A DNA stretch of 64,000 nt from assembly GCF_903915725.1 (NCBI RefSeq), contig NZ_CAIWTY010000035.1:1-64000 (forward strand), written 5' to 3'. The notes below the pieces were generated by a model. That model saw only the letters and a list, made by a program, of their open reading frames with translations, made no database searches and was not told where the DNA came from. The position numbers and the translations under genes were made by a program. Shown in pieces: positions 9,820-12,800 of the stretch (position 1 is the stretch's first letter; every line of letters begins with the position of its first letter). The stretch comes from an uncultured Rhodopila sp. Lineage in GTDB: Bacteria > Pseudomonadota > Alphaproteobacteria > Acetobacterales > Acetobacteraceae.

Positions 9820-12800
9820 ATGCGAGATACCATCCATTTCCGGCTTGGGCCGGAACCGCGGCAGCTAAGGGACATCGATCCCGCAACGACCGTGCTGGAA
9901 TACCTGCGCAATGTCGAACATCTGTCCGGGACCAAGGAGGGCTGCGCCGAGGGCGATTGCGGCGCCTGCACCGTCATCCTGGTGGATTGGAAGGATGGTC
10001 AGCCTCGCTATCAGGCGGTGAATGCCTGCATCTTGTTCGTTTCCGCGCTGGACGGGCGGCAATTGCTGACGGTGGAGCACTTGGCCGCCGCGGATGGCAC
10101 GCTGCATCCGGCGCAGCAGGCGATGGTGGAGCATCATGGTTCGCAGTGCGGCTACTGCACCCCGGGCTTCGTCATGTCGATCGCGGCGCTAGGCACCGAA
10201 GCCACTCCGGACCGAACGGCGGTGAACGAGGCGCTGGCCGGCAATCTGTGCCGCTGCACCGGATATCGCCCGATCGTCGATGCGGCGCTGTCGGTCTGCA
10301 GCGGCCGGGAAAGCCTGCCCGTCGAGGCGCCCGTGGCGGTGCCTGACGCGATGCTGGCTTTGAGGCATGGCGATGCGCTGTGCCTGGCGCCGCGATCGGT
10401 CGCGGAACTGGCGGACACGCTGATCCGCTATCCGGAGGCTGTGATTGTCGCTGGCGGCACAGATGTCGGGCTTTGGGTGACCAAGCAGCACAAGACGCTC
10501 GGGGTGACGGTGTCGCTCGACGCGGTCAGCGATCTCGCCGCGGTCACCGAGACGGCGGACACGATCCGTATCGGCGCGGGCGCGACCTACCAGGAGGCGC
10601 TGCCGGTGCTGGAAAAGCACTACCCGGACTTCGGCGCCATGATCCGGCGCCTCGGCTCGCGGCAGATCCGCAATCGCGGCACCATCGGCGGCAACATCGC
10701 CAACGCCTCGCCTATCGGCGATTCGCCGCCGGCGCTGCTGGCGCTGGACACCACGCTGGTGCTGCGCCGGGGGACGGAACAGCGCAGCGTGAGACTGGAG
10801 GATTTCTTTGCCGGCTACCGCCGGACGATCCTGCAACCGGGCGAATTCATCGAGCGGATCGATGTCCCGGTGCCTCGTGCCGGGGAGGTGTTCCATTGCT
10901 ACAAGGTGTCGAAACGCTTCGACCAGGACATCTCCGCCGTCTGCGGCGCGTTCCGTCTGCGGATCGAGGACGGGATCGTCCGCGACATCCGCATCGGTTT
11001 CGGCGGCATGTCCGCCACCCCGGCCCGGCCGCGCTCGGTGGAAGTTGCATTGATCGGGCGCCCCTGGTCGATCGAAGCGATCCGCGCGGCGCAGGCAGCG
11101 ATGGACGAGGGGTTCTCGCCACTGTCGGACATGCGGGCCAGCGCCGCCTACCGCCGCACCGTCGCGCGCAACCTGCTGCTGAAGGTGTTTCTGGAAACCG
11201 GCCGGGAGGAGGTCATTACTAATCAGTTCCGAACCGTCATGGCGGGCGAAGCCCTCCCTCGCGTGCTCGGTCGCCCGCCATCCAGGCCTTTGGCGCCACC
11301 GGCACCGCGAGGCGTGGATGGTGGCCCTGCGGCCACCATGACGGGCCGCGCCGCCGGTGGCCCGCTCGACTCGTCCCGATCTCCCGCCGCACCCGTCGGT
11401 GCCTCCATCCCGCACGATAGCGCGGCCAAACATGTAACCGGCCGGGCGATCTATATCGATGACATGCCGGACCCGGCGAGGCTGCTGCACTGCGTCCTCT
11501 ACCTTAGCCCGCACGCTCATGCGCGGATCGTCTCGATGGACCTGTCCGCCGTCGCCGCCAGCCCGGGCGTGGCTGCGGTCATGTCCGCCAGGAACGTGCC
11601 CGGCGTCAACGATGTCGGCCCCGCCTTCATGGGCGACCCGATCTTTGCCGACGGCCTGGTCGAGTATCACGGCCAATCGATCTTCGCGGTTGCCGCCACC
11701 AGCATGAAGCTGGCGCGCGAAGCCGCCGCCAAGGCTGTCATCGAATACGACGTGCTCAAGCCCATCATTACAATCGACGAGGCCCTCGCGTCGCGAAGCT
11801 TCGTGCTGCCGACTCAGGTTATGCAGCGGGGTGACGCCGCGGCCGCTCTTGCCCATGCCCCGCTGCGGCTGTCAGGCCGTATCGACATCGGCGGGCAGGA
11901 GCATTTCTACCTCGAAGGCCAGGTCGCCATGGCCATCCCGGGCGAGGACGGCGACATGCTGATTCACAGCTCCACCCAGCATCCGACGGAGGTGCAGCAT
12001 CTGGTCGCGCGCGCACTGAAACTGTCCGACCATGCGGTGGTTTGCGAAACCCGCCGGATGGGTGGCGGTTTCGGCGGCAAGGAATCGCAGGCGTCGCTGA
12101 TCGCCGTGGCGGCGGCGTTGCTGGCGCAACGAACCGGGCGCCCGGTGAAGCACCGGCTGGACCGTGACGACGACATGATCCTGACCGGCAAGCGCCACCA
12201 CGCCCGCATCGACTACGATGTCGGCTTCGAAAAGGACGGCCGCATCCAGGGGATTTCCTTCGTGCAGTCCATCGGCTGCGGCTACTCGCCCGATCTGTCG
12301 GGAGCCATCGCGGACCGGGCGATGTTCCATGCAGACAATGCGTATTACCTCGACAATGTGCATATCGTTTCACATCGCTGCAAAACCAACACTGTCTCCA
12401 ACACCGCCTTCCGCGGCTTCGGCGGTCCACAGGGCATGATCGGCATTGAGCACGTCGTGGACGAGATCGCCCGGCACCTGCGCATCGATCCGCTGACCGT
12501 CCGGAAACGCAACTTCTACGGCCAGGACGACCGGAACATTACGCCGTATCACATGACGGTCGAAGACAACATCATCCCGGAACTTGCGGCGCAGCTTGAA
12601 CAAACCGCCGGCTACGTGGAGCGTCGCAACGACGTCGCGGCGTTCAATGCCGTCAATCCGTGGATCAAGCGCGGCGTCGCTCTGACGCCGGTGAAATTCG
12701 GGATTTCCTTCACCCTGACCCACATGAACCAGGCCGGCGCCCTGGTGCATGTCTATACCGATGGCAGCGTGCAGTTGAACCATGGCGGCACCGAAATGGG

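Follow-up and report, generated by a model that had tools for sequence, protein, structure and literature searches.

The closest described relatives of the element analysed here are the alphaproteobacterial CGTC REPs (Di Nocera et al. 2013, PMC3733652), which according to the available part of that paper occur in many copies, mostly as head-head dimers, and have no dedicated transposase. They include some of the Rickettsia palindromic elements (RPEs), RPE-4 and RPE-6 being counted there as CGTC repeats. In-frame residence of palindromic repeats has been established for RPEs and for CGTC and GTAG REPs (PMC3733652, PMC2229807, PMC10969869). In the accessible text of the latter two papers, RPEs are repeats that lie in frame in conserved proteins and are tolerated there, and the insertions described are located within one gene. 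A different precedent comes from Erwinia carotovora ECA3499, whose 3' end carries an ERIC/RU-1 element; this small mobile repeat eliminated the usual stop codon and, as far as the text at hand goes, produced a C-terminal extension only, with no second gene joined (PMC2759123). The words fusion and fused are absent from PMC3733652, and gene joining is not among the cases described in its available text; the literature searched, with many journals outside its coverage, yielded no report of a palindromic repeat joining two genes.

Fusions of operon neighbours are common in comparative genomics, and the mutational step behind them is seldom visible. Xanthine dehydrogenase of Rhodobacter capsulatus (1jro) is made of two chains, XdhA and XdhB, an arrangement shared by the Rhodopila relatives, whereas the mammalian enzyme (2e3t) has the same families and the same domain order in a single chain, which we take to be a fusion of independent origin whose linker holds no REP. 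Here we analyse a 64-kb stretch of Rhodopila DNA (hereafter the window), in which one open reading frame encodes both parts of the enzyme, in the families and order of these two proteins, and a palindromic repeat encodes the linker between them. We consider it probable (about 0.8) that a CGTC-type REP dimer was inserted at the xdhA/xdhB stop/start and fused the two genes in an ancestor shared by the window species and its sister species, G006.

The fused gene, xdhAB (9820..13710, forward strand), comprises 1296 codons in one open frame that runs across both parts and the repeat-coded linker, as the sequence-only reading of this DNA had maintained. Both parts score above the curated NCBIfam cut-offs: TIGR02963 (xdhA) matches residues 5-460 over its full profile with 594.8 bits (cut-off 467), and TIGR02965 (xdhB) matches residues 526-1281, likewise over the full profile, with 1251.9 bits (cut-off 849.5). 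The XdhA part with its 2Fe-2S and FAD domains (residues 1-460; 9820..11199, forward strand) also matches PF00111, PF01799, PF00941 and PF03450, and the XdhB part, the molybdopterin subunit (residues 526-1296; 11395..13707, forward strand), matches PF01315, PF02738 and PF20256. At the sequence level, chains A and B of the R. capsulatus enzyme match the window protein at 5-465 and 526-1279, and the mammalian single chain matches it at 191-1275. The predicted mass is 139.0 kDa, a value near 138 kDa having been given earlier. Downstream lie xdhC, encoding an accessory protein (13710..14564, forward strand; TIGR02964, 304.4 bits), whose ATG overlaps the xdhAB stop as ATGA, and then a deaminase-family gene, and upstream a Urate_ox_N protein is encoded; with xdhC next door and Urate_ox_N upstream, the neighbourhood fits a purine-breakdown setting. 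In the host genome (6.7 Mb in 111 contigs) no second copy of xdhAB was seen among the matches listed, the others being about 28% identical.

The element at the junction is 111 bp long (11234..11344, forward strand), extends from CCGTCATGG on the left to CCATGACGG on the right, and is translated in frame as residues 472-509. Its ends were defined by alignment with 29 other genomic copies, which leaves its earlier placement intact and shortens it by 3 nt, the end having been set at 11347. The left REP unit (11235..11284, forward strand) consists of CGTC, a 10-bp stem (ATGGCGGGCG/CGCCCGCCAT) with a 23-nt loop and the tail CCA, and the right unit (11315..11343, reverse strand) of CGTC, a 9-bp stem (ATGGTGGCC/GGCCACCAT) with a 4-nt loop and the tail CCA. 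Along the forward strand the order is CGTC, the longer stem and loop, CCA, a spacer with pairing ends, TGG, the shorter stem and loop, and GACG. The element had been described as two perfect hairpins; both stems are indeed perfect, but the left one carries a long loop, and the spacer between the units forms a third, imperfect helix. Folding of 11225-11355 yields an outer helix that encloses three hairpins, at -73.3 kcal/mol (z -2.94), with 2 of 200 shuffles folding equally well.

The resemblance to the CGTC REPs, as they are characterized in the available text of PMC3733652, covers the CGTC ends, the stems starting with AT, the CCA tails, the head-head dimers, the spacers with complementary ends, the alphaproteobacterial hosts and the intragenic position of some units. 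A terminal CGTC stands beside the stem at 11235-11238 and, reversed, at 11340-11343, each stem is followed by an unpaired CCA, which for the right stem is read on the opposite strand, and both the dimer form and the high copy number are seen for the xdh element. The right unit fits a stem of 8-9 bp that starts with paired AT and has a loop of 4-5 nt, whereas the left unit, with its 10 bp and 23 nt, exceeds these values; a short left loop is found in many shorter genomic copies (12 places). From its letters and pairing, the element is best described as two CGTC-type REPs in a head-head dimer whose left loop is extended. Rfam gave no match at the gathering threshold across the window. With RPEs, which have been found in Rickettsia, the element of Rhodopila is likened by in-frame residence, not by RPE sequence, and it differs from the RPE insertions described in the accessible text in that it lies between two genes and yields a new architecture.

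Among 33 Rhodopila genomes searched, 14 have a match at 1e-120, or 13 after excluding G008, whose single-chain protein was ruled out as xdh (L047; an XDH-like protein with 34% identity, below both xdh cut-offs). Separate xdhA and xdhB are found in 11 of these 13 species; their frames share a few bases, in many cases an ATGA, or lie almost end to end, and the dimer pattern is absent from all 11 loci. The fused gene with the repeat at the junction is confined to the remaining two species, the window species and G006. The prediction that relatives lacking the repeat would have two genes split at this point thus held in all 11 other classifiable Rhodopila species. An XdhA fragment at a contig end in G020 was left out of the count, and a 231-nt gap in XdhB of G005 was ruled out as a repeat, being a run of N.

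In a maximum-likelihood tree of XdhA and XdhB (26 rows), the window species and G006 are monophyletic at 100/100 and nested with full support inside the split Rhodopila. Their proteins are 90% identical, and the 89-bp core of the repeat (11245-11333) is orthologous, with 3 differences in 89 positions and with spacer letters that are shared by the two cores and absent from other copies. G006 lacks 33 nt to the left of the core and 45 nt to the right; both are multiples of three, so the frame is kept.

In the alignment with the nearest split sisters, the tail of xdhA is kept to its last codons in the window gene and the element begins at the position of the sisters' stop, and the sisters' xdhB start region is unrecognisable in either fused gene. 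The flanking conserved blocks are 62-65 nt apart (2 mod 3) in the four split sisters measured, and 204 and 126 nt apart (0 mod 3) in the two fused genes. The net gain over the 62-nt sister is 142 nt (1 mod 3), that is the 111-bp element and 31 nt; since the element is 0 mod 3, it could not by itself place xdhB in the frame of xdhA, and a further net 31 nt are present. Between the element and the conserved start of XdhB lie 44 nt (11345..11388, forward strand) that correspond to a gap in G006 and have no match of E < 0.02 elsewhere in the host genome. Because the flanks align with the sisters only partly on the left and not on the right, neither a target-site duplication nor the exact insertion point is recoverable.

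We propose that a stop-poor CGTC REP dimer inserted at the overlapping xdhA stop and xdhB start in the ancestor that the window species shares with G006, and that the dimer, together with remodelling of its flanks, removed the xdhA stop and put xdhB in the same frame. The product would be one chain comprising 2Fe-2S, FAD, repeat-encoded linker and molybdopterin domain. Separate in-frame indels have since left the frames intact. An insertion between xdhA and xdhB that fused the genes had also been the proposal of the sequence-only reading, and it draws support from the genomic copies and from the split, repeat-free sisters. Both changes fall on the same branch, and among close relatives neither an unfused pair bearing the repeat nor a repeat-free fusion was found; that the insertion came first and gave rise to the fusion is what we infer.

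The reverse order would have the genes fused first by some other change, for instance an indel that deleted the stop and altered the frame, with the repeat entering a tolerant linker later. Precedents for each half of such a history are available, in the repeat-free fusions of three distant XDHs and in the REPs that reside in HypF interdomain linkers and within CobN in Rhodopila, and the failure of the element on its own to put xdhB in frame also points this way. It would need, however, two rare events on one short branch, and an element entering a pre-existing linker would have come to start exactly at the xdhA stop position in a gene whose xdhB start is unrecognisable in both fused species; we regard this order as unlikely.

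The distant fusions come from wider samples. Among 84 loci (L073, L044, L045 and L046 included, and some of them repeating genomes already counted), 79 are split, three are fused (G006, L122 and L147) and two have no xdhA in the stretch. In a class sample of 385 genomes, XdhB-like matches at 1e-200 occur in 93, of which the loci not cut by contig ends could be judged; frames of at least 1198 amino acids occur in eight of the 93, the window's own and seven others, and one of the seven is fused (G378). A repeat-free fusion with another linker, named earlier as an outcome that would speak against a role of the repeat, was thus encountered in the distant L122, L147 and G378, and among close relatives there is none. 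No REP motifs were found in the fusion linkers of these three, and L122 and L147 form one separate, distant clade in the maximum-likelihood tree, which indicates that the xdhA/xdhB junction has been fused more than once. In these samples fusion at this junction is rare and has arisen several times, and in Rhodopila it coincides with the repeat.

A fused frame might still give two chains, if translation also starts inside the linker or if the product is cleaved by a protease. An AlphaFold2 model of residues 170-1296 (38 rows; mean pLDDT 78.1) has pLDDT below 50 for residues 463-542 (294-373 of the model), which include the whole repeat-coded stretch and lie between confident domains, so that the linker, predicted to be unstructured, could be cut; such disorder fits tolerance of the repeat and is no proof of function. 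The window species also has an in-frame ATG at 11338, at the right end of the element. It is not preceded by a ribosome-binding motif, no Shine-Dalgarno-like motif standing before in-frame start codons of the linker in the window species or G006, and the G006 linker has no ATG, so one chain is to be expected and two chains seem improbable. We infer a single polypeptide that functions as a xanthine dehydrogenase. The comparison of the window gene with that of G006 places 290 of 429 nucleotide differences at third codon positions, with dN/dS of 0.127 for XdhA and 0.133 for XdhB, and both genes are under purifying selection; for the linker dN/dS is 0.735, over only 44 codons. Special constraint on the 89-bp core, which differs at 3 of 89 positions against about 30% at synonymous sites of the gene, was considered and dropped, 295 of 3716 89-nt windows of the gene being equally or more similar.

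That the assembler joined or rewrote the junction at a repeat copy is very improbable, although element copies do lie at contig ends and the HypF contigs of G006 and G046 break at the repeat, for the assemblies of two species share the fused junction with orthologous, non-identical repeat copies, and xdhA, xdhB and the gene order are as in relatives. Both fused genomes are metagenome-type assemblies of many contigs, which we have counted against the insertion as the best explanation.

The host genome still contains many copies of the repeat family. A search for the dimer pattern (the motifs CGTCATG, CATCCA, TGGATG and CATGACG in this order) finds exactly four instances in the window, at 11235, 15068, 20767 and 27013, and none in 100 order-1 Markov windows, and these are the four repeats to which a common motif order had been ascribed at 11234, 15066, 20765 and 27013. 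The three further dimers of like architecture lie at 15068..15157, intergenic and 34 nt beyond the stop at 15034, at 20767..20856 and at 27013..27099. In the whole genome, at least 73 matching pieces occur at at least 40 places (the best 40 of 386 candidates), including the xdh copy, and the expectation of further genomic copies is thereby borne out at at least 39 other places. Near-full matches to the 111 bp are restricted to the window genome and G006 among the 33 genomes (best 26 candidates per genome).

The genomic context was checked at all 40 scored places, and at three of them the element lies in a long frame that matches protein families to either side of it: the xdh junction, CobN (TIGR02257, NF008973) and HypF. 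A Pfam scan of six of the 13 other spanning frames found no domain in five, and in the sixth a domain only downstream of the element. The xdh, CobN and HypF copies are translated in one common frame of the element (VMAG...GVDGGP...MT). The CobN insert is present in the host and in G006, with 8 of 90 nt differing, is reduced to a shortened in-frame remnant in G046, and is missing from G012. In HypF the element sits between the zinc-finger and YrdC domains. Together with the xdh junction, these cases indicate that repeats of the CGTC class enter coding sequence in Rhodopila and are tolerated, and in all three they reside in frame in conserved protein genes, as RPEs do.

CGTC REPs may serve in Rhodopila as ready-made, in-frame, disordered linkers that are tolerated between domains, as in HypF, and within a protein, as in CobN, and that at a translationally coupled stop/start junction convert two operon genes into a single multidomain protein, which selection then maintains; for this generalization we see about even odds. 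If true, it would be a recurrent route from short non-coding repeats to new protein architectures. The xdh case extends the in-frame residence known from RPEs and CGTC REPs from the decoration of one protein to the joining of two. In it the sisters keep the two-gene state, the repeat family is abundant, and the event is delimited by a second species with the fusion. How many chains fused xdhAB yields, and whether the enzyme is active with the repeat linker or without it, can be tested directly.

In four species (the host, G041, G006 and G046) REP-derived inserts that differ in type and frame occupy the HypF linker that connects the zinc-finger and YrdC domains, and the linkers of G019 and G044 have no insert; this linker is an apparent insertion hot spot. 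Contig ends carry copies of the element at five places in the host genome, so such repeats break these assemblies, and counts of them are probably too low. Longer flanks are common to many full-length copies, with a CGGCACGTGCCG palindrome on the left and GACGTCAGCAGCAACGCCGACACCATTTGCCGTCATCGCGGTGC on the right, so that the 111-bp dimer frequently belongs to a larger mosaic element, in contrast to the copy at the xdh junction.
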